Of a DNA stretch of 64,000 bases, positions 34,163 to 46,527 are shown one piece after another (within the stretch, counting starts at the first letter, position 1; every line of letters starts with the position of its first letter). The position numbers were made by a program, and so were the translations under genes. The notes under the pieces were generated by a model. The model worked only from the letters and a program-made list of their open reading frames with translations, did no database searches and was not told where the DNA came from. Origin of the DNA: Falsiroseomonas bella (GTDB taxonomy: Bacteria > Pseudomonadota > Alphaproteobacteria > Acetobacterales > Acetobacteraceae); contig NZ_QGNA01000001.1 in NCBI RefSeq assembly GCF_003173615.1, forward strand, positions 1 through 64,000, in the 5' to 3' direction.

Positions 34163-34217
34163 GATGGTAGCGGCGAGCGGACTTGAACCGCTGACCCCGG
34201 CATTATGAGTGCCGTGC
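34163..34217. repeat. attL: 55-bp copy of the tRNA-Met 3' part
   Basis: The copy is identical to 46449-46503 and corresponds to tRNA nucleotides 25-77 plus two flanking bases. The sequence diverges right after GCCGTGC, so the 5' half of a tRNA is missing and this copy cannot make a tRNA. It marks the left boundary of the element, 12 bp after the aldo/keto reductase-RidA stop. Confidence 0.9.
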
Positions 34218-34343
34218 AGGGCTGATCCGCCGGACCTTGCGCATCCTGGCCGAGAGCCCCGAGAGCCCCGGAAATCCCCGGTTTTCCTCGCCTTTTGGCG
34301 TTCCGCATCTTTCCGCACATTTCCGCTTGCTTCCGCAGGCTGC

Positions 34344-34392
34344 GTCCGGTCAATGTCCGGTCAGACCGGACCACGGCATTCGCGTCCGGTCA
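34344..34392. repeat. Left arm-type integrase sites (GTCCGGTCA)
   Basis: Three direct copies of GTCCGGTCA occur at 34344-34352, 34355-34363 and 34384-34392, with an imperfect inverted copy (AGACCGGAC) near 34363-34371. Four more copies occur at the opposite end of the element. Repeats of this kind, located between attL and the integrase start, are what the N-terminal domain of tyrosine integrases binds. The rest of the interval 34218-34416 has no gene. Confidence 0.75.
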
Positions 34393-34416
34393 GGGACAGC
34401 AGCGAAGGACGGGACG

Positions 34417-35739
34417 ATGCAGGTGCTTCGGGAAGGGCCGGTGAAGATCACGAAGCCGACGATCGAGGCGGCTTGGAAGCGGCGGGCGAAGGGGCTGCGC
34501 ATCGTCATTGCCGACCTCGAGCGCCGCGGCCTGGCGCTGGTGGTGAACCCCACCGGCATGACCTGGCGGTATGACTACAAGCCGCGCGGCGTGGACCCGA
34601 CCACCGGCAAGCGGTTCCCGAGCCAGTCCGTGACGATTGGCAATGAGAAGACGCACTCGCCGGAAGAGGCGCGCGACGCCGCGAACCGGCTCAGGGGGCA
34701 GGCTCAGACCGGGGAGGACCCCGCCAAGGCGCGAAAGGCCGCGATCACCGCCGCAGCAGAGAAGCGCAGCCGGACGATTGACCGGCTGGTGGAGGACTAC
34801 GCCAAGGCACTCCCGAAGCGCCCGAAGCTGCGCGGCAGCGGCAAGGCCTCAGCGGACTACGTGGCGCGGGAGATTGGCCGCGTGAGGGCCGCGGTCGCCG
34901 ACATGAAGGCCTCCGGCCGCCCGGTGGCAGACATCACCGACCGCGACATCCGCACGCTCCTGCGCGCGACCGCGGAGCAGCCTGGCGCGGCCCGACACCG
35001 CTTCGGCGCGCTGTCCCGGTTCTTCGACTGGTGCCGGGATGAACGGCTGATCCCGACGAACCCATGCCTTGCGATCGGCAAGGAGAAGCGCCCGAAGCCC
35101 ATTCCCGCGCGCCAGCACTTCCTGAGGCCTGCCGAGCTCGCCGCACTGTGGAACGCGATCGGCGAGGCCGAGGGGCTCGAGGACGTGCACCGCGACTTCG
35201 CGCGGTTCCTCATTGCGGTTCCCTGCCGGCGGAATGAGGCCGCAACGCTCGATTGGGCGCATGTGGACCTGGCCGGCGCAGAGTGGACGCAGCCCGGCGC
35301 CCTCACGAAGAACGGCGACCCGCACCGGCTGCACTTGCATCCGCTCGCGCTCGAAATCCTGTGCAGGCGCCACGCCGATGCCGACGAGCCCGCGGCCGGC
35401 CTGGTCTTCCCCTCGCCCTCCGCCCGGCGCGCTTTGACCACCTTCAGCGACTTGAAGCTCGCGATCGAGAAGAAGGCGGGGCGCGACGACTGGCGCTTCC
35501 ACGACTTCCGGCGATCCTTCGCGACCGCACTCGGCGAGGCCGGCTTCGCTGAGCCGGTGGTTGATGCCGTGCTGAACCATCGGCAGGCCGCGACGCGGGG
35601 CGGCGTGCTCGGGGTCTATCAGCGCGCGACCCGGTGGCCTGAGCAGGTGCGGGCGATGCAGGCATGGGGCGACATGCTGGCCGCGGCACTGGAAGGCCGC
35701 GAGGCCGGCGCGCAGGTGGTGCGCCTGGCGGTCGCCTAG
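34417..35739 (+). CDS. int: Tyrosine-type site-specific integrase
   Basis: The 440-residue integrase catalyses integration and excision at tRNA-Met. The N-terminal part (about 1-100) is a DUF4102/arm-binding-like region with VVNPTGMTWRYDYKPRG. A SAM-like core-binding domain follows at about 125-225. The catalytic domain has Arg271/Arg272 in VPCRRNEAATLDW, His362-x-x-Arg365 in HDFRR, His388 in LNHRQ and the nucleophile Tyr401 in GVYQRATRW. All needed residues are present, so it may be active. The ATG at 34417 follows AAGGACGGG; the open frame further upstream overlaps the arm sites and is not used. Confidence 0.93.
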   Translation: MQVLREGPVKITKPTIEAAWKRRAKGLRIVIADLERRGLALVVNPTGMTWRYDYKPRGVDPTTGKRFPSQSVTIGNEKTHSPEEARDAANRLRGQAQTGEDPAKARKAAITAAAEKRSRTIDRLVEDYAKALPKRPKLRGSGKASADYVAREIGRVRAAVADMKASGRPVADITDRDIRTLLRATAEQPGAARHRFGALSRFFDWCRDERLIPTNPCLAIGKEKRPKPIPARQHFLRPAELAALWNAIGEAEGLEDVHRDFARFLIAVPCRRNEAATLDWAHVDLAGAEWTQPGALTKNGDPHRLHLHPLALEILCRRHADADEPAAGLVFPSPSARRALTTFSDLKLAIEKKAGRDDWRFHDFRRSFATALGEAGFAEPVVDAVLNHRQAATRGGVLGVYQRATRWPEQVRAMQAWGDMLAAALEGREAGAQVVRLAVA

Positions 35740-35745
35740 CCGCGC

Positions 35746-36085
35746 GGGACATGTCCGCGGATGTCCCGTCCCGCCATGTCCCGACCCGCGCGCAAACCGG
35801 CCTTTGAGGCCGACAACGGGCTTATCGGGATATCCCGGGACATGTCCGTTTCGGGATGTCCCGAGCCCGAAAGCGGCCCCGGATGTCCCGACCCCCTACC
35901 CCATGTCCCGCATATCCCGGACATCCCGAACGCGCTGAAAGCCAGCTATCTCTAGGGCTTCCGGGCGGGACATGCTCTGACCCCCCATGTCCCGGACATC
36001 CCGAAACACCCCCTCACGGGATACACGGGACATCGCGGACATCCGGGATGCCACGGACATCCGGGACACCACGGACATACCGGAC
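35746..36085. repeat. Dense GGGACAT/ATGTCCC repeat array
   Basis: About 20 copies of (C)GGGACAT, its complement ATGTCCCG, or one-base variants fill 340 bp directly after the integrase. Examples are the palindrome GGGACATGTCC (35746 and 35837), CGGGATATCCCG (35826), CGGGATGTCCCG (35852), the head-to-tail ATGTCCCGGACATCCCG (35987-36003), and a tandem run of CGGACATCCGGGA-like units from 36016 to 36085. Copies occur in both orientations with irregular spacing of 1-30 bp. The layout fits iterons or multiple operator sites better than coding DNA. A replication origin for the element's primase/ATPase is a reasonable guess. Confidence 0.85.
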
Positions 36086-36094
36086 ACACTCTCC

Positions 36095-36113
36095 CTCTCT
36101 CTCTCTCTCTCTC
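36095..36113. repeat. (CT)n dinucleotide tract
   Basis: Nine and a half CT units lie immediately after the repeat array. The purine/pyrimidine asymmetry could give local melting or H-DNA. The tract is followed by 278 bp (36114-36391) without a convincing gene that contains CCCATTTTTCGCG near 36192; this is probably the promoter/leader region of the first operon. Confidence 0.75.
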
Positions 36114-36391
36114 GAGGATGAGGAAGGAAGGGAAAGGAAAGGGCCGGCCACCGATGGGGCTGGTTGCGAAAGCGCACCCCGCGCCACGCGCGCCCATTTT
36201 TCGCGCTCCCTCTCTCCGCGCGTTTCCGCTATTCTCCGCAATCGAAGCCGTCCTGGTTGTGATCGGGACGGAGCGCCGGTGGGGTTTCTGGCGCGGACGG
36301 CTGGATGGTTCCGGCTGCGACGCTCCCCACCGTGCCGGGCGGCTCCCGGTGATGGGCGATCGAGTGCGCTCATAGCGGCGGAGAGAGCCGG

Positions 36392-36706
36392 ATGTCTGAC
36401 AACATGAATGCGGGCTGGCGCGTGGCGGCGACTGAGCTGCGGGCGGAGGGCGAGGCCTTCGCGCGGCATGTCGCCTTGCATGCGAGCGAGGCGGAGACGC
36501 CGGCGCGGCCGGATGAGGGGCAGCGTACGGCGCTGGTGCATCGGCTGCGGCGGAAGGTGGCAGAGGGGCGCGCGATGACGCTGGCGGACCTTCGGCTGAA
36601 GGCGCGAGCGATCCTCGCGGACATGCCGGCGCCGGACGTGCTTGCTCCCGAGGCGGAGGCGGCTTGGAGCCTGGCGCGCGACCTCGCGGCGCTGCCGGAC
36701 GCCTGA
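36392..36706 (+). CDS. Hypothetical protein, first gene of the element operon
   Basis: The 104-residue protein is mainly helical and Ala/Arg/Glu-rich (GWRVAATELRAEGEAFARHV, HRLRRKVAEGRAMTLADLRL). It has no signal peptide or membrane segment. GGCGGAGAGAG lies 6-8 nt before the ATG. I recognise no family. The position downstream of the repeat array and promoter region suggests an early regulatory or accessory protein, but nothing in the chain proves this. Confidence 0.65.
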   Translation: MSDNMNAGWRVAATELRAEGEAFARHVALHASEAETPARPDEGQRTALVHRLRRKVAEGRAMTLADLRLKARAILADMPAPDVLAPEAEAAWSLARDLAALPDA

Positions 36707-36802
36707 CAGATCGGCGGGGCTAGGCTGGCCCCCGAACGCCCGGACCCTCCGCGCCGGGCTGCCCCGCCGACCCTGCCCGCGGAGCGCGCGGAGGCGCGAG
36801 GT

Positions 36803-37456
36803 ATGGACGAAGGCGAAACTGGACCGTTCTCCGGCCCGCTTCTGGTGCTTGCTGCCACGCTGGTGCTGCAGGGCGCTGCGCGCCGGCAGCGGCTGCATCC
36901 TGCGGCAGCCAGCGAAGCATGCGATGCAATGAACCGTGCGTTTCGGGCATCGCTACACGCCGCCGAGCGCAGCACCGCGAGAGCAGCGCAGGCGGATGAG
37001 GTGAAGAACGCGCGCGACGGGGCGCGGAACGCAGGCGAGCTGCCGATTGCTGCAGAGATTGCAGCTGCTCACCGGGAGCACCGCGCGGCCCAGCTCAGCA
37101 GGCTGCCCAACGCCCGCGTCTGGCGGGCAGTGCGTGCCGAGTTCTCGCGGGAGCAGCATCCGAAGCCCGGCCGGCCGCCGAAGCTCGCTGCCATTACCTT
37201 CGAGGAAGGAGCCCGCTCAGCCTGGACCCTGCTCACTGGGCGGGCACCGCGCGCGCGCCGCGACGCAGGCGAGGACGAGCCGCCTGCGGAGCGCTTCACC
37301 CGCATCCTCGCAACTATGGCCGTTGAGGGTGAGATCGCGGTGCGCGGCCAGTCCATGAACCCCGACCGTGCAATGCGGCACTGGCGGGACGAGATCGCGG
37401 CACTGTCGCAAGCACCCTTCGCGATCACCCGCCTTGAACGGCGCCGGCACAAATAG
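36803..37456 (+). CDS. Hypothetical protein
   Basis: The 217-residue protein has a hydrophobic N-terminal stretch (PLLVLAATLVLQGAA, about 12-26), a helical Ala/Arg-rich centre, and a segment HPKPGRPPKLAAITFEEGARSAW that looks like an AT-hook-like or basic linker. The end is very basic (RLERRRHK). The family is not recognised. It may be a DNA-binding accessory protein. The start lacks a strong ribosome site and may be internal. Confidence 0.55.
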   Translation: MDEGETGPFSGPLLVLAATLVLQGAARRQRLHPAAASEACDAMNRAFRASLHAAERSTARAAQADEVKNARDGARNAGELPIAAEIAAAHREHRAAQLSRLPNARVWRAVRAEFSREQHPKPGRPPKLAAITFEEGARSAWTLLTGRAPRARRDAGEDEPPAERFTRILATMAVEGEIAVRGQSMNPDRAMRHWRDEIAALSQAPFAITRLERRRHK

Positions 37457-37544
37457 CGCATTCCAGCCCCGCCAAGCCTTTCGCTCCGGTCTTTAGGGTC
37501 CCGCCCAACACGCCGAAGGGCGTGTATGGAGACGGGGCCGCAGC

Positions 37545-37868
37545 ATGCCGCGAAAGCGCGCGACGACGACGACGAAGCCCGCGCCGGTGATCGTCGCCGA
37601 TCCGGCCGCGATCTGGCCGGCGGGTGAGCCCGACCCGGCGCTTCTGCCGCGCCGAGTGGACCGGAAGGCCGCCGCTGCCATCCTCGAACGCTACTACGGC
37701 AAGGTTTCCGCCCGGACCCTCGAGCGGTGGCCGCTGGCATGGCGCCACTTCGGCGGCCGCGCCGTGTGCGAGACGCGCGAGCTCCTGACCGTTGCCGAAG
37801 CGCGCTTCAACGCCGCGCCAGCGATCCGCGGGGGGCGGCGCCTCGACCCTTCGCAGGTGGCGGCGTGA
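37545..37868 (+). CDS. Small DNA-binding protein, possible excisionase/HTH
   Basis: The 107-residue protein has a basic Thr/Lys N-tail (MPRKRATTTTKPAP). It also has a region RRVDRKAAAAILERYYGKVSARTLERWPLAWRHFGGRAV that resembles the winged-helix MerR/excisionase type: a helix, SARTLERW as recognition helix, then a wing with a Gly turn. Elements of this kind carry such a factor for excision or early gene control. Upstream, CACGCC-GAAG-GGCGTG forms a small hairpin. It is followed by the GcrA-like gene with 1 bp between. Confidence 0.6.
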   Translation: MPRKRATTTTKPAPVIVADPAAIWPAGEPDPALLPRRVDRKAAAAILERYYGKVSARTLERWPLAWRHFGGRAVCETRELLTVAEARFNAAPAIRGGRRLDPSQVAA

Positions 37869-37869
37869 C

Positions 37870-38304
37870 ATGGAGCCCGCCGAGTTCCGCCGCCGCCTGT
37901 CTGCTGCGCTCACCAATGCCGGCCGGAGTGGTGCGGAGCGCCGCGCGCATGGCGCGATGCCTCAGCGGCTCGCCGATGTCGGCAGGGTGCGCCACGACCG
38001 TTGCCAGTGGCCGATGTGGCCGACTGCATCCGGCGACCATCGCCGGCTGGTGTGCGGCGCCGTGACGGACGACGCCAGCCCCTACTGCGCGGCGCATCGG
38101 CGGCTGGCCGAGGCCCCGCCCGCGGCCGATCCTGCCCTTCGCGAGCTGCGGGAGGCCTCGCAGACATTCAGGGCGCGGTGGGCCGATTGGGTCGCGCAGC
38201 GGCAGCCGCCGCCGCCAGCGATCACGGCGGAGATTGCAGCTACCGCCCTCGAGCTGGCGAAGCTCGCCGGCCTGGCCGTGAACGCGACGGAGGCCGGGCC
38301 GTGA
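37870..38304 (+). CDS. GcrA-like C-terminal domain protein
   Basis: The 144-residue protein has a central block, DRCQWPMW then RRLVCGAVTDDASPYCAAHRRLA. This resembles the C-terminal part of the alphaproteobacterial cell-cycle regulator GcrA (CRWP, FCG, PYCxxH). The residues Cys45, Cys62, Cys73 and His76 could bind zinc. The N-terminal DNA-binding HTH of GcrA is missing or unrecognisable. In GcrA this C-terminal region binds sigma-70, so a role as a host-RNA-polymerase modifier is possible; this is inference. It overlaps the next gene at ATGA/GTGA. Confidence 0.55.
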   Translation: MEPAEFRRRLSAALTNAGRSGAERRAHGAMPQRLADVGRVRHDRCQWPMWPTASGDHRRLVCGAVTDDASPYCAAHRRLAEAPPAADPALRELREASQTFRARWADWVAQRQPPPPAITAEIAATALELAKLAGLAVNATEAGP

Positions 38305-38537
38305 TGCCCGATGCCTCCCTCCGCCTGCAGCGCGGCGCCGAACACCTCGCCGAGCTCGGGCCGCGCGCCATTGCGGAGTTCCTCGCCGAAATCGGCGCGG
38401 CGCATGGCATCGGCGACGACATCGCGGCGCGCCTCGACATCTGGCGGCGCCTCCGCCCGGCCATGCTCCGGGCTGTCCTGCAGCGGTTCGCCGGCGGGCG
38501 ATCGTTCCCGGCTCGCCTTGCGGTGGCGCCACGATGA
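38304..38537 (+). CDS. Small hypothetical helical protein
   Basis: The 77-residue protein, RLQRGAEHLAELGPRAIAEFLAEIGAAHGIGDDIAARLDIWRRLRP and so on, is wholly helical with no recognised family. It shares bases with the stop of the GcrA-like gene and overlaps the next gene by 4 bp, which supports translation. Similar short proteins next to phage primases exist, but no function can be given. Confidence 0.6.
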   Translation: MPDASLRLQRGAEHLAELGPRAIAEFLAEIGAAHGIGDDIAARLDIWRRLRPAMLRAVLQRFAGGRSFPARLAVAPR

Positions 38538-39037
38538 GCGCGCCCGCCTCCGCTTCGGCACACATCGCCGAGCTCGCCGCGAAGCTGGAACAGGCTGGCG
38601 CCGGATGGCATGCGCCCCTGCTGCGCGCGGCGATGGCGGACGCGCTGGCCGTGTGCTTCGTCATGCCGGGCGGTCGCGTGCCGCTCTGGGTGCTCGATCC
38701 GGTGAAGCACCCGAAGCCCTTGGTGCTGATCCTCTCCGGCGACGATGTGGAGGCTGCGCAGGCGGCCGAGTTCCCGCAGGCGAAGCGCCTGGTGCAGTGG
38801 GCAGCGCGGATCATGGTGCACGGCGCAGCCGGCGCGCCAGAGCACTACGCGCTTGCGGCACATGCCGCGATGTCGGCTCGGCGGCTGCTGATCATCGAGA
38901 CGAGTTCCGCGCTGCTGCCGGAGTGGGTGGCCTTCTGCAAGCGCCATGCGGCGCGGACGCCGACGCTGGCCGTGGCGGTGCCCGGCGGCGGTCAGCACCC
39001 GTGCGAGACGCGGCCGGCCGAGGTGGTGCTGCAATGA
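38534..39037 (+). CDS. Hypothetical protein
   Basis: The 167-residue protein has an alternating alpha/beta pattern (LAVCFVMPGGRVPLWVLDP, PLVLILSGDD, RRLLIIETSSALLPEWVAF). This suggests a Rossmann-like or restriction-nuclease-like fold, but without a clear catalytic motif. It sits directly before the Toprim primase with a 4-bp overlap, so it probably serves element replication. The family is not recognised. Confidence 0.65.
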   Translation: MSAPASASAHIAELAAKLEQAGAGWHAPLLRAAMADALAVCFVMPGGRVPLWVLDPVKHPKPLVLILSGDDVEAAQAAEFPQAKRLVQWAARIMVHGAAGAPEHYALAAHAAMSARRLLIIETSSALLPEWVAFCKRHAARTPTLAVAVPGGGQHPCETRPAEVVLQ

Positions 39038-40002
39038 GGACGCTCCCGACCGCCGCGGCGATCGCCGACATGCTGGCCGAGCGCATGCCCGAGCTGGCGC
39101 GCGAGCTTCATGGCGAGCCGACGCACCGCGGCCGGGAGACGTGGCGCTTCCGTGCCCGGGGCTCTCTGTCCGTCGAGATCGCGGGGCCGAAGCGCGGAAG
39201 CTGGTACGACCACGAAGCCGGCGAGGGTGGCGATGCGCTGGCGCTGGTCGCGCACGCGCACGGGACCACCATGTCGGGCGCGTTCCGCTGGGCGCTGGGC
39301 TGGCTCGGCCTGGGCGACAGCACGATGCACCCGCCGGAGCGCCGCGCCGCTGTAGCGCCACCGGAGCCGCCGCGCGGGGGTGGTGGCGATGCGAAGGCAT
39401 GGAGCCGCGACCTGGCTGCCCGCATCTGGCGCGAAGCCGTGGCGCCGGCCGGGACGCTGGTGGAGACATACCTCGCAGCGCGCGGCCTGGAGATCGAGCA
39501 CGACGCGCCGATCCGCTTCCATCCGCGCGCCTGGCGCAATCGACAGTACGGCCCGGATGGTCCCGCGATGGTCGCGCTGATGACCGACCCCGCGACCAAC
39601 GCGCCCTGCGGAACGCATGTCACCTACCTGCAGCCGGACGGCAGCGGGAAGGCCGAGGGCAAGCGGGCGAAGATCATGCTCGGCGACACCGGCTGCATCC
39701 GGCTCGTGCCGGACGCGGATGTGACGATGGGCCTCGGCCTCGCCGAAGGCATCGAGACGGCGCTTGCCGTGATGCAGCATTTCCAATGGCGGCCGGTATG
39801 GGCCGCGACCTCCGCCGGCGCGATCGCCCGCTTCCCGGTGCTGCCGGGCCTCGCCCTGACGGTCTTCAGCGACATGGACGAGGCTGGCTCGGAAGCTGCG
39901 CAGGCCTGCGCCTCGAGGTGGGCAGAGGCGGGCCGAGAGGTGCACATCTACGCCGCTCCGGCCGGTGACTTCGCCGACCTCGCCGCGGAGCATGCAGCGT
40001 GA
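39034..40002 (+). CDS. Toprim-domain primase-like protein
   Basis: The 322-residue protein has an N-terminal CHC2-like or DUF7146-type region (SLSVEIAGPKRGSWYDHEAGEGGDALALVAH). The C-terminal Toprim domain has the Glu motif GLAEGIETALAVM (about 236-248) and the Asp-x-Asp-like motif LTVFSDMDEAGSEAAQACA (about 278-296), ending GREVHIYAAPAGDFADL. It should prime or assist DNA replication of the element. The zinc Cys set of DnaG is absent, as in many phage and plasmid primases. It is followed at once by an AAA ATPase, the usual primase-helicase pairing. Confidence 0.85.
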   Translation: MRTLPTAAAIADMLAERMPELARELHGEPTHRGRETWRFRARGSLSVEIAGPKRGSWYDHEAGEGGDALALVAHAHGTTMSGAFRWALGWLGLGDSTMHPPERRAAVAPPEPPRGGGGDAKAWSRDLAARIWREAVAPAGTLVETYLAARGLEIEHDAPIRFHPRAWRNRQYGPDGPAMVALMTDPATNAPCGTHVTYLQPDGSGKAEGKRAKIMLGDTGCIRLVPDADVTMGLGLAEGIETALAVMQHFQWRPVWAATSAGAIARFPVLPGLALTVFSDMDEAGSEAAQACASRWAEAGREVHIYAAPAGDFADLAAEHAA

Positions 40003-41042
40003 GCCCGGAGGCGCTGCTTGCCGCGCGGGGCGCTGTGGCGCTGCCTCCGGTCGCCCGCGTGAACGGCGCGCATCCGCCGACCCGCGCGGCTGCCGCGCCG
40101 AAACCGACGCCGCCTCCTGCCGGGGCTGCGCCGCGCATCTGGACCGCGGGCGACCTCTTGGCGCAGAGCTTCCCGGCCATCCGCTATGTCGTGCGGGAGT
40201 TGCTTCCGCAGGGATATGCGATCCTCGCCGGCGCGCCGAAGCTCGGGAAGTCCTGGCTCGCCTATCAGATCGCGGCCGCAGTGGCGGAGGGACGCGACCT
40301 CTTCGCGCAGGCGACGGATAGGGGCGAGGTTCTGCTTCTGGCTCTCGAAGACGGGGAGCGTCGCGTTCAAGATCGGCTCCTGAAGGTGCTCGACAACCGC
40401 GCCGCGCCGGCCGGGCTCTCGATCGCGACAGCCTGGCCGCGCATCGGCGACGGCGGGCTTGAGCAGATGCAGGCATGGGCCAGCCGCACGCCGAGTGCCC
40501 GGCTGGTGATCGTGGACACCTTCGCGAAGCTGAAGCCGCCGAGCTCGCGCAACGTCAACGCATATGATGCGGACTACGCGCTGCACGGGCAGCTTCACGC
40601 CTTCGCCACGGCAAGCAAGCTCGCGGTGCTCGCGATCACGCATTACCGGAAGGGCGCAGCCGGCGGAGACTTCGTGGAGGCCGTGACCGGCAGCGCAGGC
40701 ATCACCGGCGCGGCTGACACGATTTTGGCAATGGAGCGCGCGCGCGGATCTGAAGACGCGGTGCTGCACGTGACCGGCCGCGACATCCGCGAAAGCAAGC
40801 TCGCGATCCGCCTCGAGAATGGCATCTGGCGCTGCCTCGGCGATGCGGCTTCGGTGCTCGAGGGAGAGACGCGGCAGAAACTATCCCGGATCGTCGCCGA
40901 GGCCTCCGAGCCGCTCACGGCGGGCGAGATTGCCGAGCTCGCCGAGCTGAAGGCGGACACCGCGCGCCGCACCTTGAACCGCATGGTTCGAGATCAGCGG
41001 ATTGTCCGCAGCGGCAACCGCTACGCGGCTCGCATCGGATGA
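39999..41042 (+). CDS. RepA-like AAA ATPase (replicative helicase/loader) with C-terminal winged helix
   Basis: The 347-residue protein has a RecA/RepA-like AAA_25 domain: Walker A AGAPKLGKSW (about 79-88), a second acidic strand VLLLALEDGERR, Walker B LVIVDTFAK and sensor THYRKGAAGGDF. The C-terminal 70 residues form a winged helix (LTAGEIAELAELKADTARRTLNRMVRDQRIV). Such hexameric ATPases act as helicase or helicase loader in plasmids and satellites. The GTG start overlaps the primase stop by 4 bp. Together the two genes suggest that the element replicates autonomously after excision. Confidence 0.85.
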   Translation: MSPEALLAARGAVALPPVARVNGAHPPTRAAAAPKPTPPPAGAAPRIWTAGDLLAQSFPAIRYVVRELLPQGYAILAGAPKLGKSWLAYQIAAAVAEGRDLFAQATDRGEVLLLALEDGERRVQDRLLKVLDNRAAPAGLSIATAWPRIGDGGLEQMQAWASRTPSARLVIVDTFAKLKPPSSRNVNAYDADYALHGQLHAFATASKLAVLAITHYRKGAAGGDFVEAVTGSAGITGAADTILAMERARGSEDAVLHVTGRDIRESKLAIRLENGIWRCLGDAASVLEGETRQKLSRIVAEASEPLTAGEIAELAELKADTARRTLNRMVRDQRIVRSGNRYAARIG

Positions 41043-41752
41043 AGGAGGTTGGGCAGGTGGTAGGCGTGTGCTGGCGGCCGGATGTGGATTGGGAGACTGC
41101 ACGCCGCGAATACGAGTGCGGCCTTTCGCTGACTGCGATCGGGCGCCGCCACAAGATCAGCCGCGAGGCCGTGCGCAAGCGTGTTCGCAAGGAGGGATGG
41201 GAGCGCACGCCCGACGCCGACGCCCTCGCGCTGACCGACACGGCGCGCCGGCTCTCGCAGCCGGCGACGGGCACGGACCACCGCATGGTCAACGGCGGTG
41301 GCGGCTCGAAGCGGTCAATGACCAACGCTCAGCGCCTCCTGGACATGCTGGCATGTGGCGCGACGGTGACGCTCGCGGCGAAGCGCCTTGGCATGGCGCC
41401 GCTAAGCGTGCGGCGGTGGCTCGAGCAGGATGAGCAGCTCGCGGCGATGGTGGAGCAGGCGCAGGCGGAGTTTGCATCCGGCCTGGTGGACAACATCCGC
41501 GATGCCGGCAAGCGCGACTGGCGCGCATCCTTCGCGCTGCTCGAGAAGATGCCTGTCAGCCGAGACGAGTTCGGCGAGCAGCCGAATATCGGCGGACCAG
41601 GGGAAATCAGCATCGCGGTGGTCCTGCCTGGCGAGCTGCAGGCCATGCTCTCGACGCCTTGGCAGAAGCCCGAGCACCCGCCGGCGATCGAACACGATCC
41701 CGCCGGCGATGCGCCGGCATTCGCGAAGCACGAAGGAGACGATCGGACATGA
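41039..41752 (+). CDS. Small-terminase-like HTH protein
   Basis: The 237-residue protein has two helix-turn-helix units. The first is WETARREYECGLSLTAIGRRHKISREAVRKRVRKEGW (about 18-54). The second, AAKRLGMAPLSVRRWLEQDEQLAAMVEQAQ, is followed by a region with NIRDAGKRDWRASFALLEKM. The order HTH, helical hairpin, W-R-x-x-x-x-L-L-E matches TerS proteins of many tailed phages. A TerS without a large terminase in the same element is the arrangement used by PICI satellites to redirect helper packaging. A plain transcription regulator is the alternative. Confidence 0.6.
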   Translation: MKEVGQVVGVCWRPDVDWETARREYECGLSLTAIGRRHKISREAVRKRVRKEGWERTPDADALALTDTARRLSQPATGTDHRMVNGGGGSKRSMTNAQRLLDMLACGATVTLAAKRLGMAPLSVRRWLEQDEQLAAMVEQAQAEFASGLVDNIRDAGKRDWRASFALLEKMPVSRDEFGEQPNIGGPGEISIAVVLPGELQAMLSTPWQKPEHPPAIEHDPAGDAPAFAKHEGDDRT

Positions 41753-42651
41753 CCACCACCTCCGCCGCGCGCCGGCCGCAAGCCTCGACCGCGCGTGACT
41801 GGCGGCGCGAGCATGACGCGCTGCACGCCGAGCTTGTCGCCGATGGCGTGGAGCCGAGGTGGGCGCCGTTCGCTGCCTACCTGGGGACCGCGCAGGAGGC
41901 GGCGCGCGCGACGGGCGGCAGCCTCTACGATGGCTTCGCCACCCTGACCGCGGCCGGGCTCGCCTGGCCGGCGCGCAGTTCGGTCCCGACCCGGTTCTGG
42001 AGCCGGCTGCGGCCCGCGGACGACTTCGCGCCCGGCGACGGCAACCGCGCCGCCGAGAGGTTCCGCCGGGCCGAGCGCGAGGCCGAGCGGCAGGCCCCGC
42101 CGCCGCCGCCGAAGTGGCGCCCGCGGAACGTCGCCGAGTTCGTCACCTCCGCCCCCCGCGCGGCCGTCGAACACCTCGCCACGATCTGGCGGGAGCATCA
42201 CGGGACAGACGTTGTGACGCCCGATGCGATTGCGCATGAGGTGGCCGCCTTCGTCGCCGGCGCCGGCGCTGCGGAGGCGACGCGGCAGGAGGTTGCGGGC
42301 GCCATCGCGTGGCACCTCGCCGGCTGGCCGGATGGCGAAGGGCGCTTCTTCACGGTGACGGAGGAAACGCCGGAGCGCGCGCCGCTGCGGCTCGGCTTCG
42401 TCTTCGCGCCGATCCCGGAGCGCGCGCCGCCGACCGATCCGGCGCTGATCCCCTGGCGCGACCGGATGGCGCAGCGCGAGGCCGAGCTTCTGGACGATCC
42501 CGCCTTCCGCCCAGGCGGCGTGCGGGATGACCGGGTGATGGCTGCGCAGGGCGAGGCCTGGCGCGAGGCTGTCGCGGCCTTCGCGGCTTCGATCGGCGCC
42601 GGCGAGCGCGAGGCCCTCCGCCGGTTCGCAGTCGGCGGGCTGCACCGATGA
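41749..42651 (+). CDS. Hypothetical protein, possibly phage-related
   Basis: The 300-residue hydrophilic protein has a Pro/Arg linker (about 105-125) and ends with an amphipathic helix pair. Segments such as APFAAYLGTAQEAARATGGSLYDGFATL and VAEFVTSAPRAAVEHLATIWREHHG are not assigned to a family. It lies between the TerS-like gene and small phage-like genes with 4-bp overlaps on both sides. No membrane segment or signal is visible. Confidence 0.6.
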   Translation: MTTTSAARRPQASTARDWRREHDALHAELVADGVEPRWAPFAAYLGTAQEAARATGGSLYDGFATLTAAGLAWPARSSVPTRFWSRLRPADDFAPGDGNRAAERFRRAEREAERQAPPPPPKWRPRNVAEFVTSAPRAAVEHLATIWREHHGTDVVTPDAIAHEVAAFVAGAGAAEATRQEVAGAIAWHLAGWPDGEGRFFTVTEETPERAPLRLGFVFAPIPERAPPTDPALIPWRDRMAQREAELLDDPAFRPGGVRDDRVMAAQGEAWREAVAAFAASIGAGEREALRRFAVGGLHR

Positions 42652-42986
42652 GCGGAAAGACCTGGCCGGCGCCGCAGACGCAGGCCGAGCGCGACGGCGA
42701 CCGCATCGCGGACCTGATGAAGCACCCGCGCTACTGGCAGGACGCTGGCTTACAGGCCGAGGTATCGGCGCTGTTCCAGAAGTACTACTCGACGCCGGCC
42801 TCGCCGCAGCCTGAGCCCGCCGCCCCGCCTGGCGTCACGGAAGCGGGCCTCCGGGCCATGCAGCGCGATCCCCGCTACGCGCGACCGGACAGGCGCGATC
42901 CCGCCTTCGTGCAGCAAGTGGATGCCGGATGGCGCGCGCTGCACCCCGGCGACCTTCCCACCTCACACACCGGCCGAGCCGAATAG
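42648..42986 (+). CDS. Small phage-like hypothetical protein
   Basis: The 112-residue protein has two similar halves around a Pro-rich hinge: KHPRYWQDAGLQAEVSALFQKYY and QRDPRYARPDRRDPAFVQQVDAGW. The shared D/H-PRY-x-D-x-x-F/L pattern resembles motifs in phage head-associated proteins, but I cannot name a family. It overlaps the previous gene by 4 bp and is followed after 10 bp by a coiled-coil gene with a strong AGGAGA. Confidence 0.6.
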   Translation: MSGKTWPAPQTQAERDGDRIADLMKHPRYWQDAGLQAEVSALFQKYYSTPASPQPEPAAPPGVTEAGLRAMQRDPRYARPDRRDPAFVQQVDAGWRALHPGDLPTSHTGRAE

Positions 42987-42996
42987 GAGAACCGAC

Positions 42997-43398
42997 ATGG
43001 ATGCACCCGCCCTCGCCAGCGCCCTCGAAATCGCGCGGCAAGTCCAGGCGCAGTTCGTCGCCTTCCACCGCCTCGGCGAGTTCCTCGATACCTGCGCCGC
43101 GCTGGCGCAGCAGCAGAGCGAGGCGGCCGAGCATCTCGCAGCGCTCCGCAGCGAGGCGGCGCAGGTGGCGGGGGAGATCGAAACGGCGCGCGCCGACCTG
43201 GCGAGCCTGCGCGGGCAGACGCGGAAGGCCGCCGACGCCCTCAACGCCGCCGAGCAGCGCGTGAAGGATGCCGCGCCGAAGGTGGCGGAGGCCGAGGCCG
43301 CCGAGGCGCGCATCCGGGATGCAGAGGCGACGCTGGCCGCCCTCAATGGCCGGATCGAGAAGGCGCGCGCGGCGCTCGGGATTGCCGCCGATGGGTGA
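42997..43398 (+). CDS. Coiled-coil protein
   Basis: The 133-residue protein is almost wholly predicted coiled coil from about residue 45 to 130 (SEAAEHLAALRSEAAQVAGE, ARADLASLRGQTRKAADALN, RIRDAEATLAALNGRIEKAR). It is rich in Ala, Glu and Arg with heptad spacing. AGGAGA lies 6 nt before the ATG. The function is unknown. In phage clusters such proteins may be scaffolding or tail-fibre assembly factors. It overlaps the next gene by 8 bp. Confidence 0.65.
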   Translation: MDAPALASALEIARQVQAQFVAFHRLGEFLDTCAALAQQQSEAAEHLAALRSEAAQVAGEIETARADLASLRGQTRKAADALNAAEQRVKDAAPKVAEAEAAEARIRDAEATLAALNGRIEKARAALGIAADG

Positions 43399-43918
43399 GT
43401 TCGCCGCGATCGCCGCTCTCGCCGCGTCGGCTGCCAGCACGGTCACGGCGGTCGCGGGAGCGCAGCAGGCGCAGGCGGCCGGGCGGCTCCAGCGGCAGCA
43501 GGCCGAGCAGCAGGCGATGCTCTATGGCGAGCAGCGGCAGCAGGTGGCCGATGCCGCAGCGCAGGAGGCGGGAAACCGGATGGTGGCGCTCAGGCGCACC
43601 CTCGGGGCGCAGGAGGCCTATAGGGGCGCCCGCGGGCTGGCGAGCGACAGCATGGGCGCGAGCGTCCTGCGCAGCGCCAGCGAAGCCGAGCTTGCCCGCG
43701 ACCTCGATACCATCGCCATCAACGCCGGCCGTGAGCGGCGCAGCCTGGGGCTTGCGGCGAGCCGGGCTTACCTCAGCGGCGAAGCGGCGATGGCAGGCGC
43801 GCAGGGGCAGGCCCTTGCCGCGTATGGGCAGGCGTTCCGCTCCGGCGCCGACGCCCTGGGAGCGGCGCGCGGCTTCCTCTCCGGCGCGCAGCAGCCGGCG
43901 CCGAGGGGCACGCCATGA
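43391..43918 (+). CDS. Phage virion-internal-like protein
   Basis: The 175-residue Ala/Gln-rich protein opens with a hydrophobic helix (EFAAIAALAASAASTVTAVA). It continues with helical QQAQAAGRLQRQQAEQQAML, a core RMVALRRTLGAQEAYRGARGLASDSMGASV and a Gly/Ala-rich tail. This composition and the GARG-x-x-SDS-G-S motif resemble internal virion or tail-tip-associated proteins of podo- and siphoviruses. That assignment is by pattern only. Its presence without structural genes is notable. Confidence 0.55.
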   Translation: MGEFAAIAALAASAASTVTAVAGAQQAQAAGRLQRQQAEQQAMLYGEQRQQVADAAAQEAGNRMVALRRTLGAQEAYRGARGLASDSMGASVLRSASEAELARDLDTIAINAGRERRSLGLAASRAYLSGEAAMAGAQGQALAAYGQAFRSGADALGAARGFLSGAQQPAPRGTP

Positions 43919-44238
43919 AGGACGAGCACAGCGCCCGCCCGCCCCTCTGGCAAGCCGTGCGGCTGATCCATGCGGCGCTGGATGATCGCGAGACGTGCGA
44001 CCGCGACAGGGCGATTGCGCAAGCGATGCTCGGCGCGATGGAGACGGCGCGGCTTCCCTGGATCGCGGATGCCGCCGCCGACCTCGCCGAGACGGTGGCC
44101 GACCCGACCGCGGACGCCGACCTCCGGCAACACGCCTGGCGCGCGCTGGCCGAGGAACACCACGCTCAGCGCCCGATCCGCCGCGCCCTCGCCCGCGGCG
44201 CTGCGCCCTGGCTGGTGGTGGGTGGCACCGCCGCGTGA
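43915..44238 (+). CDS. Small hypothetical helical protein
   Basis: The 107-residue all-helical protein (AVRLIHAALDDRETCDRDRAIAQAMLGAMETA, ADPTADADLRQHAWRALAEEHH) resembles HEAT/ARM-like repeats in rhythm. It shares the D-R-x-x-A pattern with the protein encoded at 45704 on the other strand, which may be a distant relative. It overlaps its neighbours by 4 bp on both sides. Confidence 0.6.
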   Translation: MKDEHSARPPLWQAVRLIHAALDDRETCDRDRAIAQAMLGAMETARLPWIADAAADLAETVADPTADADLRQHAWRALAEEHHAQRPIRRALARGAAPWLVVGGTAA

Positions 44239-44468
44239 GTGTCGATCCGCCGCCCGGCCTCGACCGCGACGGCATGGCGGAATGGCGCGCTGCGTTCCAT
44301 GCGCGACGGGCTGCCATCGTCGCCGACTGTCAGACCTGGCAGGAGCGAGCCCTCCGCCTCTACGCCGCGGGCGAAACCTCGCGCGGTCTGATCGAGGCGC
44401 TCGGCCTCGAAGTGCAGGGCGAAACGGACGCGCCCTGCTTGGCCCGGAAACAGGGAGCTTCGCCGTAG
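44235..44468 (+). CDS. Small hypothetical protein, last plus-strand gene of the element
   Basis: The 77-residue hydrophilic protein (GMAEWRAAFHARRAAIVADCQTWQERALRLYAAGETSRGL) has a GTG start that overlaps the previous stop by 4 bp (GTGA). It has no recognised family. It converges on the minus-strand group with 20 bp between the stops. Confidence 0.55.
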   Translation: MSVDPPPGLDRDGMAEWRAAFHARRAAIVADCQTWQERALRLYAAGETSRGLIEALGLEVQGETDAPCLARKQGASP

Positions 44469-44488
44469 GTGAGCGCAGGGGTTCACCG

Positions 44489-45250
44489 TCACCAGTTTCG
44501 GCGCTGCGCCCACACCTCGGGGCGCCGATGCTCGCCGTGCGCCTCGTAGTGCTCGATGTCCGCGAGCAATTCGGCCACATCGGGGGGCACTGGCCCAAGG
44601 GATACCGCGAGCTTGCGCAGATCGCCGGCAGTAATTGGCCGCCCTGCCGACCTTGCCTCCGTTTCGACCTCGGCGCGGCGCTCCGCTGAGCCTGGGTAAT
44701 GCTTCCGAATGAGGCTCATCACGCCGGATGTGTAATCTTGCAGCACATACACCTTGTCCGCAGCCCGCGCCTCCCGCAGCTGCTCAGGAGAGACGCCGAG
44801 CTTTTCCAGCGAACGGAGGACTTCCCTCTTCTGTGCGTCTTGGCGCTGAAAGATGCCCGGGTCTGCCCACCGGCTCAGGCCCGCGTTGTGGTGAATGACG
44901 ACAGCGCCGAGATCAGCCGCGAAGGCTCGAAGGCGCTGCAGAACGTCCTCAGCTTCGACAACCGCGCGCCGCATCCTCGCTTCTAGCCCGAAAACCTTCA
45001 GAACCTCGAAGCGGTCGGCATTGCCGATGAGCCCGCACAACGCGCCAGCGCCGAGCAGGAGCACGGAATTCTCAGTGCGCGAATTGTCACGAATGGCGAG
45101 CTCGTGCCACGCGGTCCCGAGAAAGACGAGCGCGGCAGCATTCCAGATGAAAGCCAGCGCATGCTGCGCAACGAAAGAGATCAGCCCCCGCACTTCACCA
45201 CCGCTTCTCGAAGCCCCTTCCTGCCAATGCATCTCGAGCCAAAGTGTCAC
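44489..45250 (-). CDS. Membrane protein of unknown function (element cargo)
   Basis: The 253-residue protein has two N-terminal transmembrane helices: about 24-46 (LISFVAQHALAFIWNAAALVFLG) and about 62-78 (VLLLGAGALCGLIGNA). A long cytosolic helical region of about 160 residues follows, with LEARMRRAVVEAEDVLQRLRAFAADLG and a C-terminal DVAELLADIEHYEAHGEH. The family is not recognised. Codon use is less extreme in GC than in neighbours. Lone genes at this place in satellites often encode immunity or defence functions; that is inference. Confidence 0.6.
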   Translation of the reverse strand: MTLWLEMHWQEGASRSGGEVRGLISFVAQHALAFIWNAAALVFLGTAWHELAIRDNSRTENSVLLLGAGALCGLIGNADRFEVLKVFGLEARMRRAVVEAEDVLQRLRAFAADLGAVVIHHNAGLSRWADPGIFQRQDAQKREVLRSLEKLGVSPEQLREARAADKVYVLQDYTSGVMSLIRKHYPGSAERRAEVETEARSAGRPITAGDLRKLAVSLGPVPPDVAELLADIEHYEAHGEHRRPEVWAQRRNW

Positions 45251-45283
45251 GCCTGCGGCCGCCGATGAGGGAGGCGCGGGCGG

Positions 45284-45664
45284 TCAGTCGCTCCCGCGGC
45301 CATCCGCGGCAGCCGCAGCCGCGAGGCGCCCCCTGAGCTTCTCCCAGGCCGCATAGACGTCTGATCCGAAGTCGCTCAGCGCATGCGCCGCATGCTCATT
45401 CAGCCAGAGCCCGCCATTCTCCCGCGGCTTCGCGAGGCCTGGCAGAACGCCAGCCTTCAGCAGCGCGTCTGCCTCGGCATGCGTGATCGGGTTCGGCTCG
45501 TCGCTCCCCTTGCGCAGCACGTAGCCGCTCGGATCGGCCCGGCGCCGACCGTCATCCCGATCCCATGCGACAGACCACGCCTGGAAGCCTCCCTCGACCC
45601 GCCACGGCTGCCTCAGCAGCGCCAGCAAAGCCTCAGGGATCACCGGAGGTGTGCGATCAGTCAT
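45284..45664 (-). CDS. Hypothetical protein (element cargo)
   Basis: The 126-residue soluble protein contains WRVEGGFQAWSVAWDRDDG and YVLRKGSDEPNPITHAEADALLKAGVLPGLAKP. It has beta-strands in the first half and helices in the second, and no family match is known to me. It sits between two other minus-strand genes with gaps of about 35-40 bp and may share a transcript with them. Confidence 0.55.
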   Translation of the reverse strand: MTDRTPPVIPEALLALLRQPWRVEGGFQAWSVAWDRDDGRRRADPSGYVLRKGSDEPNPITHAEADALLKAGVLPGLAKPRENGGLWLNEHAAHALSDFGSDVYAAWEKLRGRLAAAAAADGRGSD

Positions 45665-45703
45665 GCTGCTCCCCTGCTATGCGCGCCCTATGGCCGCCCC
45701 TCG

Positions 45704-46069
45704 CTACTGCTTCGTCTCCGGCACCACCGGCCAGCGGCTCACGTCAGCCCCGGCGCCCGCAAGCTGCTTGCTGAACGCCTGCAGAGCCTCGCGCGCCCTC
45801 TGCCGAAGCGTGGCATCTTCCCCGTTGCGGGCGATGTCCGCCAGATCGGCGAGGGCAAACGGAATGTCCATCCGCGCGTCAGCCCGCTCCCGATCTAGAA
45901 GCGTCCGCGCAAGATCCCGGTCAGCCGGGGCGGCTGAGGCATCAGACGCGACTTCCTCCAAGAGGGCGATGAACCGTCGGGAGGCATCCAGCCGCACCTC
46001 ATTCGACGCGTCATCATCAGCCATCGCCTGAACCAGAAGAGCCGCCTCAGCCAACCGCCTATCCGCCAT
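45704..46069 (-). CDS. Small helical hypothetical protein (element cargo)
   Basis: The 121-residue protein from the ATG at 46069 (MADRRLAEAALLVQAMADDD) is wholly helical with a repeating pattern DxxRRFIALLEEVASD, ADRDLARTLLDRERAD, DATLRQRAREALQAFSKQ. This suggests HEAT-like repeats. The open frame upstream to 46201 reads as non-coding. The family is not known. It is the first gene of the minus-strand group and its promoter region contains no obvious -10. Confidence 0.55.
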   Translation of the reverse strand: MADRRLAEAALLVQAMADDDASNEVRLDASRRFIALLEEVASDASAAPADRDLARTLLDRERADARMDIPFALADLADIARNGEDATLRQRAREALQAFSKQLAGAGADVSRWPVVPETKQ

Positions 46070-46319
46070 CCGTCGCCACGCTCCAGCCCCAGGGCTGCCC
46101 CAGACTACAGGGAGCCAATGCCAACTGCGCGACAATTCATTCCGCGCGCAGGAGGGCAGCCGGTCAGAGAGAGCAAATCGTGCGCGGGAGAGGCGCGACA
46201 CGCTGCGGCGCCATTTTTCAACCCCTGCCCCTCCGCTCCCGCATCGCGCTCGAGGCCCCCGGGGAGGGGTCGCGGGCAGCGCGCCGGCGGCCGGGGCGAG
46301 ACGCGGCGCGCGATGCGCT

Positions 46320-46378
46320 GTCCGGTCAGGCGCCCGCGCGCGTCCGGTCAGGCCGTCCGTCCGGTCAATGTCCGGTCA
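46320..46378. repeat. Right arm-type integrase sites (GTCCGGTCA)
   Basis: Four direct copies of GTCCGGTCA lie at 46320-46328, 46342-46350, 46359-46367 and 46370-46378. The last two form GTCCGGTCAATGTCCGGTCA, identical to 34344-34363 at the other end. The rest of the interval 46070-46448 has no gene. Confidence 0.75.
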
Positions 46379-46448
46379 GCCGAAATCGACACCGCACTAA
46401 CCCGCGCGGGACGACCTCGCTTAACGCCTTGATATGCCTGAGTTTTTC

Positions 46449-46503
46449 GATGGTAGCGGCGAGCGGACTTGAACCGCTGACCCCGGCATTATGAGTGCCG
46501 TGC
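46449..46503. repeat. attR: 55-bp copy within tRNA-Met
   Basis: The copy is identical to 34163-34217. It covers the tRNA from the anticodon arm to CCA, so insertion rebuilt a complete tRNA gene on this side. The crossover lies somewhere within this identity block. Confidence 0.9.
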
Positions 46504-46527
46504 TCTAACCAGCTGAGCTACGCCGCC
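46451..46527 (-). tRNA. tRNA-Met (anticodon CAT)
   Basis: The 77-nt elongator-type tRNA has acceptor stem GGCGGCG/CGCCGCT (G1-U72 wobble), D-arm GCTC..GAGC and anticodon stem CGGCA/TGCCG. The loop contains CAT at 46491-46493 (complement), the T-arm has GTTCAAG, and CCA is encoded. The first base pair and general sequence are not those of initiator tRNA. It is the integration site of the element. Confidence 0.95.

Follow-up and report, generated by a model that had tools for sequence, protein, structure and literature searches.

We analysed a window of 64,000 nucleotides from Falsiroseomonas bella (Acetobacteraceae, Alphaproteobacteria; contig NZ_QGNA01000001.1, positions 1 to 64,000), which contains a 12.3-kb element at 34163..46503, a bounded unit integrated in tRNA-Met. 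We consider it likely that this element is a satellite of T7-type podoviruses, built like a phage-inducible chromosomal island (PICI) and using a small terminase (TerS) together with a competing scaffold similar to CpmB of the Staphylococcus aureus pathogenicity island SaPI1. Behind this reading stand the observed anatomy of the element, its homologies, its recurrence, the lack of the genes that it would have to borrow and the constraint on those that it captured. The genes concerned are:

41039..41752, plus strand: probable TerS (TerS-family PHROGs, best 1.4e-9)
42648..42986, plus strand: g12, 112 aa, apparent scaffold mimic with scaffold C-terminal motifs at about aa 12-59 (diverged) and aa 61-112
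42997..43398, plus strand: g13, coiled-coil protein, possibly related to a coiled-coil gene of podovirus contig L013
43391..43918, plus strand: g14, gp14-like internal virion (ejection) protein (phrog_418 1.8e-6; T7_gp14 9.5e-5)

The C-terminal 49 aa of g12 are 75% identical to the end of the scaffold of a T7-like podovirus (IMG/VR contig L013), and the scaffold body is missing from g12. In L013 the scaffold is the open reading frame (ORF) preceding the capsid gene (Phage_capsid_2, 9.4e-74), and its T7 type is indicated by PF05396 (1.7e-5, below the cut-off) and phrog_3742. Scaffold ends have a common C-terminal motif of about 40 aa, which was seen in 28 sequences (19 resident-type copies from host genomes, 2 from the prophage of genome G344 and 7 from viral contigs). 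A hidden Markov model (HMM) built from the 24 non-redundant sequences among them found whole g12 at 1.1e-21 in a set of 270 element genes, with the next protein at 0.0042; among 250 control genes, the three true scaffolds alone scored, followed by a value of 0.49. In 84 comparisons (6 queries, 7 scaffolds and 2 lengths, with 500 shuffles each), the last 50 or so residues of g12 gave z 39.9 against the L013 scaffold end (HMM 1.7e-18), and the first 60 or so gave z 8.9 against L113, 7.2 against L105 and 1.2 against L013. Judged by its sequence, g12 thus appears to be a scaffold mimic that combines the presumed capsid-binding ends of scaffolds of two podovirus types, the putative counterpart of the mimic by which type 1 SaPIs redirect capsid size. 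Because of its place in the scaffold, and by analogy with phage 80alpha, this end would bind capsid. CpmB competes with the 80alpha scaffold, which has the same capsid-binding motif as the CpmB C-terminus (PMC5644958, PMC6893505). Like CpmB, g12 is a short protein whose C-terminus would copy the capsid-binding end of a helper scaffold.

The gp14 of the element is 77% identical to that of L013; its T7_gp14 match falls below the Pfam cut-off. At the DNA level, identity with L013 extends over 150 bp in the scaffold gene and over 464 bp in gp14. We searched the element by tblastn with 28 phage structural proteins from relatives found in the analysis, and the only matches came from all four scaffolds, at their C-termini, and from both gp14 queries, with none for five TerL (large terminase), four portal and three major capsid protein queries or for phage gp11, gp12 and fibre. 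Neither profiles nor these queries recognised a TerL, portal, capsid or tail gene, the set expected of a podovirus prophage. The captured genes are under constraint: by a simple Nei-Gojobori estimate (dS about 0.5-1 for cross-lineage pairs), dN/dS between the window and L013 was 0.24 for gp14 and 0.28 for the C-terminal part of g12. Between L049, a second element described below, and L113 it was 0.34 for gp14. Values of 0.43 were obtained for the primases of the window and L047, 0.33-0.45 for integrases and 0.04-0.35 for seven genes of L037 and L041.

L049 (genome G377, another genus) has an integrase, gp14, TerS and a 65-aa protein directly after terS, along with prim-pol-like and helicase-like genes, both named by eye. 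Its gp14 (1e-46) and TerS (1e-31) match podovirus prophage L113 in congener G344, where the matching gene is a TerS by phrog_51 (9.6e-6); that prophage, delimited by eye, spans at least 33 kb, up to its contig end. The 65-aa mini-scaffold scored z 7.4 against the scaffold end of L113 and z 0.9 against that of L013. In the gp14 tree the window grouped with L013 (84/82) and L049 with L113 (95/98), the second pair alone being starred by the program, and L049 has another gene order. Since the parts of L049 match L113 and those of the window match L013, helper virion parts were probably captured at least twice. The likely helpers would be podoviruses with T7-like morphogenesis genes (L013, L014, L197 and prophage L112-L114). 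Satellites are about one third of the size of their helpers (PMC10803314).

The element is delimited by the following features:

34163..34217: left attachment repeat, a truncated tRNA-Met 3' part (exact 55-nt direct repeat)
34343..34364, plus strand: left arm-type repeat (22-nt exact repeat CGTCCGGTCAATGTCCGGTCAG)
46358..46379, plus strand: right arm-type repeat (22-nt exact repeat CGTCCGGTCAATGTCCGGTCAG)
46449..46503: right attachment repeat, within the intact tRNA-Met (exact 55-nt direct repeat and ARAGORN tRNA)
46451..46527, minus strand: tRNA-Met (cat), the target gene (ARAGORN)

The attachment repeats lie 12,286 bp apart, start to start, and are the sole exact 55-nt pair; the second-longest exact pair at comparable spacing in the window has 22 nt. 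Because this tRNA-Met is the only tRNA of the window (ARAGORN), the right repeat can be assigned to its 3' 53 nt plus 2 nt. The core word of CGTCCGGTCAATGTCCGGTCAG recurs near both ends of L037 and L045, elements with homologous integrases. Among 14 congener mnmA loci, the tRNA-Met adjoining mnmA is intact in 13, the 14th being cut by its contig end, and similarity ends no more than 6 nt from the edge of the repeat. Nine of the 14 congeners have the left-flank gene near full-length, in all 9 on a contig other than that of the tRNA. When the 120 bp beyond tRNA-Met were compared tail to tail among the 13 congener loci, no two matched, so that different DNA follows the tRNA. This tRNA-Met is a hotspot or a synteny breakpoint.

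Gene calls in the element and in the compared loci were made with a simple in-house ORF caller. The left part of the element comprises:

34417..35739, plus strand: tyrosine integrase, 440 aa (PF00589, PF13356); may start further upstream, at 34297 or 34237
35745..36033: array of 10 ATGTCCCG octamers on both strands in a long non-coding gap, candidate replication origin
36392..36706, plus strand: g2, 104 aa
36803..37456, plus strand: g3, start uncertain (37001 possible)
37545..37868, plus strand: g4, 107 aa, excisionase/AlpA-type helix-turn-helix suspected by eye only
37870..38304, plus strand: g5, with similarity to the C-terminal region of GcrA (PF07750 5.8e-6)
38304..38537, plus strand: g6, 77 aa, conserved in other primase islands
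38534..39037, plus strand: g7, 167 aa, conserved in L037, L041, L011 and L192
39034..40002, plus strand: Toprim primase (PF13362, PF23639, phrog_510 4.7e-41)
39999..41042, plus strand: RepA-type AAA helicase (PF13481 1.9e-29; PDB 1g8y RepA 2.2e-4)

The integrase (Arm-DNA-bind_3 4.8e-11, Phage_integrase 1.2e-12; catalytic residues judged by eye only) has its best-scoring relatives in L045 (1e-176) and L037 (9e-167). Primase and helicase matched Toprim_3 (1.4e-12) and AAA_25 (1.9e-29), and the genes from the primase to g16 are closely packed, with mostly overlapping ends. Ten of the 12 window copies of ATGTCCCG fall within the 289 bp at 35745-36033, which may be the replication origin; a pac or regulatory site is also possible. 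One array each of another octamer (7-9 copies) lies at the rep 3' end and the following gap in L047, L048 and L037; unlike these, the array of the window does not adjoin rep. Arrays of at least 5 copies were absent from L041, L046, L049, L045 and L183, L177 has arrays of 5, and none of at least 6 was found in the host parts of the window. The g4 protein is conserved in L037 and L045 (phmmer 1e-19 and 5e-15) and gave no Pfam, PHROG or NCBIfam match at a useful E-value; a Stl-type repressor or profile-supported AlpA was not found in the element. For g5 the PF07750 score is 27.2 bits with a cut-off of 26.9. GcrA-like genes were seen on two islands, at 37870-38304 of the window and at 7372-7836 of L047, the latter named by eye. 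GcrA is a family of cell-cycle sigma-70 cofactors, and such island genes might tie these elements to host cell-cycle control.

TerS-family PHROG matches cover two parts of the probable TerS, which resembles the TerS of L045-L048 (33-39% identity) and is not similar to podovirus TerS (score 35). Relatives at E <1e-20 occur in 5 of 397 family genomes, its own included, and at E 0.001 in 13. The similarity of g13 to the coiled-coil gene of L013 (blastp 6.7e-4 over 28 aa; z 4.9) is of a kind that coiled coils inflate. The remaining genes are:

41749..42651, plus strand: g11, 300 aa, with no relatives in the searches made
43915..44238, plus strand: g15, 107 aa, weak similarity to g19
44235..44468, plus strand: g16, 77 aa, with a related gene in L047 (phmmer 1e-12)
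44489..45250, minus strand: g17, start possibly 45193
45284..45664, minus strand: g18, start possibly 45643
45704..46084, minus strand: g19, start possibly 46069

Paralogy of g15 and g19 was considered and dropped (z 4.1 only). The L047 copy of g16 matches a gene adjoining terS in podovirus contig L197 (3e-6). No relaxase or mating-pair Pfam family, such as an integrative and conjugative element would have, occurs among the 19 genes, and the sole TraI-named NCBIfam match is the primase, far below cut-off. These searches bear out most of what the sequence-only reading had listed: the 3' part of tRNA-Met repeated exactly over 55 bp, a 22-nt arm-type repeat near each end, an integrase, a Toprim primase with an AAA ATPase, a TerS-like and a virion-internal-like protein, and no recognised conjugation, large terminase, portal, capsid and tail genes.

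Elements with related integrase, primase or TerS occur at other tRNA genes of the family. Seven elements have tRNA-end repeats, that of the window included, and five of them measure 10.5-13.1 kb. The other six are:

L047: tRNA-Glu, 48-bp repeat, 10.5 kb
L037: tRNA-Lys, 47-bp repeat, 12.9 kb
L045: tRNA-Thr, 48-bp repeat, 5.0 kb
L049: tRNA-Glu, 18-bp repeat, 12.3 kb
L048: tRNA-Glu, 18-bp repeat, 6.7 kb
L046: tRNA-Ser, 15-bp repeat, 13.1 kb

The 15-18 bp repeats of L046, L048 and L049 are near background, the next longest having 15, 14 and 16 bp, respectively. None of the six gave a TerL, portal or capsid match with the 28 tblastn queries, for which L041 and L046 were delimited by eye. The phage scaffolds and a 265-aa protein of L047 have phrog_3742 in common, and an internal virion protein similar to phrog_342 occurs in L037. 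L045 (4959-10076, in tRNA-Thr) holds little beyond integrase, g4 and TerS and is a remnant or a minimal satellite. We dropped the primase as a satellite marker: among 20 primase regions, the best-scoring from the 103 of 397 family genomes with a match, three encode capsids (L180, L187, L193) and others are different islands. In L180, L187 (on the contig of L038), L193 and L009 the primase/helicase module was seen with an HK97-type capsid, protease and portal (our own labels), and TerL was seen in L009 and L187; these are capsid-forming PICI (cf-PICI)-like elements or prophages. Two large proteins with Walker A-like motifs stand beside the primase module of L181 (7991-12400) and are possibly cargo such as defence genes.

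The host genome has a resident morphogenesis cluster of podovirus type (G000:C1:1148391-1162447; L070 14391-20000 and L071 1-8447) with genes for an S24 repressor, portal, scaffold, capsid, gp11, gp12, gp14, fibre, TerL, holin (by eye) and lysin; no integrase or replication gene was seen near it. The L013 capsid protein found matches in 114 of 397 family genomes and in 12 of 12 congeners searched, and 107 of the 114 have a single match, with identities of 54-61% in nearly every case. The two other genomes looked at, L115 and L116, have the same gene order, and the downstream flank is kept in L116, from another genus, where the in-house caller missed the capsid gene that the protein search places there. 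The resident capsid gave a dN/dS of 0.11 (1 of 8 pairs yielded a value). This looks like a domesticated podoviral cluster, possibly similar to a gene transfer agent, and no report of one appeared among the literature matches listed.

In the satellite cycle that we infer, step by step, the integrase would insert the element into tRNA-Met and excise it. On infection or induction of a helper, primase and RepA-type helicase would copy it, probably from the array at 35745-36033, and its TerS would steer the large terminase of the helper onto satellite DNA. By competing against the scaffold of the helper for the capsid protein, g12 may give small (about 12-kb) or satellite-only shells in the manner of CpmB, and the carried gp14 may enter the internal core of the particles, so that the satellite supplies a matching ejection part. 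The satellite logic of the sequence-only reading (integrate, replicate, redirect packaging, and carry neither capsid nor TerL nor tail) agrees with the profiles and the comparison. Its phage of Alphaproteobacteria can now be named by type, as a T7-like podovirus, on which the element presumably depends. Its undescribed family holds in part, the replication and integration modules being common to other islands, capsid-encoding ones among them. It had also said that structural genes among the hypothetical proteins would speak against a satellite; a scaffold end and an ejection protein were found there, and both fit one.

Several results weigh against a podovirus satellite. The TerS assignment comes from profile pieces, the Foldseek matches of this protein were not significant (best E 1.1), and dN/dS of TerS pairs was 0.67-0.72, which means either loose evolution of TerS or a divergence too great for a judgement. 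The HMM sees the N-terminal motif of g12 only weakly (independent E-value 0.0039, hardly better than an L178 gene at 0.013), the quoted z-scores are the best of the 84 query/target pairs, and the L013 coiled-coil query found no tblastn match to g13 at 1e-3. No clean empty site with both flanks was found among the 14 congener mnmA loci. Six of eight elements (L047, L046, L048, L037, L041 and L045) gave 0 of 28 structural matches, L047 and L037 being tied to podovirus parts by remote PHROG links only. An L013-like prophage was not found in the same assembly, whose only L013-type capsid gene lies in the diverged resident cluster (59%). Finally, scaffold end, coiled coil and gp14 stand in the order of L013, as they would in a shrunken prophage, an L013-like temperate phage from which deletions had removed TerL, portal, capsid and tail. 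The DNA-level identity over the 150 and 464 bp also suits such a remnant, but its ORFs should hardly be open and overlapping with dN/dS of 0.24-0.28, and g12 holds within its ORF a second scaffold-end motif of another lineage. The TerS unlike that of podoviruses (score 35), the related integrase, primase or TerS modules of elements in which nothing L013-like matched, and the independent case of L049 with its other gene order likewise argue against loss from a prophage, which we regard as unlikely.

A satellite might instead exploit the resident cluster, from portal to TerL, rather than infecting phages. The cluster lies in the same genome, its capsid gene type occurs in 12 of 12 congeners searched, and g12 scores 1e-7 against the resident scaffold; but g12 and gp14 are far nearer to L013 (75-77%) than to the resident genes (27% for gp14), and the chance of this seems slight. 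The resident cluster was dropped as helper, its gp14 and scaffold being too distant. Slighter still is the chance of an interference island, in which g12 and gp14 would chiefly be decoys that spoil the assembly of podoviruses, with spread being incidental. A capsid-binding fragment and a virion protein without a shell would suit that role, and no PADLOC match was found in the 8 genes scanned, so that retention is not explained by a known defence gene among them; the full set of integration, replication and TerS genes, however, points to spread as the main role.

Within the podovirus satellite, a possible though doubtful extension is that g12 is a two-headed capsid adaptor, its N-half serving the L113 type and its C-half the L013 type, that builds a hybrid particle with gp14. 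If so, one satellite protein would hijack two unrelated helpers or, alternatively, clamp two capsid subunits together and so fix the curvature of the shell, with no need to dimerise. Given the satellite gp14, the hybrid particle would have its own shell size and ejection core; we know of no described satellite that builds one.

With temperate T7-like podoviruses (L013, L197, the G344 prophage) the element has in common the scaffold end, gp14 and perhaps the coiled-coil gene, but not TerL, portal, capsid and tail proteins or the podovirus type of TerS. PICIs are described by an attachment site with integrase, a replication module, a conserved origin organisation, an AlpA/Stl regulator and terS or Rpp, and further by phage-dependent induction, interference, transfer in phage particles and PICI-exclusive genes (PMC6092414). 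The element has a specific site with its own integrase (55-bp tRNA-Met repeats, arm-type repeats) and its own replication module (Toprim primase and RepA-type helicase); for packaging redirection (terS or Rpp) it has a TerS by sequence profile, with weak structural support. A cf-PICI has genes of its own for capsid, protease, portal and connectors and for the two terminase subunits (PMC10690885). The primase/helicase module of the element recurs on capsid-encoding islands of the host family (L180, L187, L193), whereas the element itself has no recognised capsid, portal, protease or TerL.

In P4-like satellites and PICI-like elements (PLE), a satellite protein (Sid, TcaP) redirects capsid size (PMC12409344). 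Redirection by a satellite protein is also what we propose for the element. To our knowledge, Sid and TcaP are not scaffold-end mimics of the g12 kind, and P4 has psu/delta-type genes. Phage-inducible chromosomal minimalist islands (PICMIs) are likewise small, with an integrase and replication genes; they have no capsid-remodelling genes and no identified terS homologue, and PICI hosts are given as Firmicutes and Gammaproteobacteria (PMC10803314). The element, unlike PICMIs, has a probable TerS and a putative scaffold mimic. Known satellite families were built from few hosts, and no report of a podovirus satellite of Alphaproteobacteria was found by title or abstract start in a literature with few subscription papers. 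If our reading holds, Acetobacteraceae and podovirus helpers join the known satellite range, and with two satellites that each match a different phage lineage, helper specificity could be read from the sequence and put to the test.

The element would work like a type 1 SaPI (TerS and CpmAB); we do not claim PICI membership for it. Both have a site-specific integrase, their own replication genes, TerS, no capsid or TerL of their own and a small protein with a C-terminus that copies (in the element, putatively) the capsid-binding end of a phage scaffold. SaPI helpers are siphoviruses, whereas the likely helper here is a T7-like podovirus. The mimic of the element appears to have two scaffold-end motifs, that of SaPI a dimerisation domain and one, and the element also carries gp14 and has no Stl-type repressor or profile-supported AlpA that we could find. 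If true, this would likely be a second origin of the CpmB trick of taking the capsid-binding tail of the helper scaffold.

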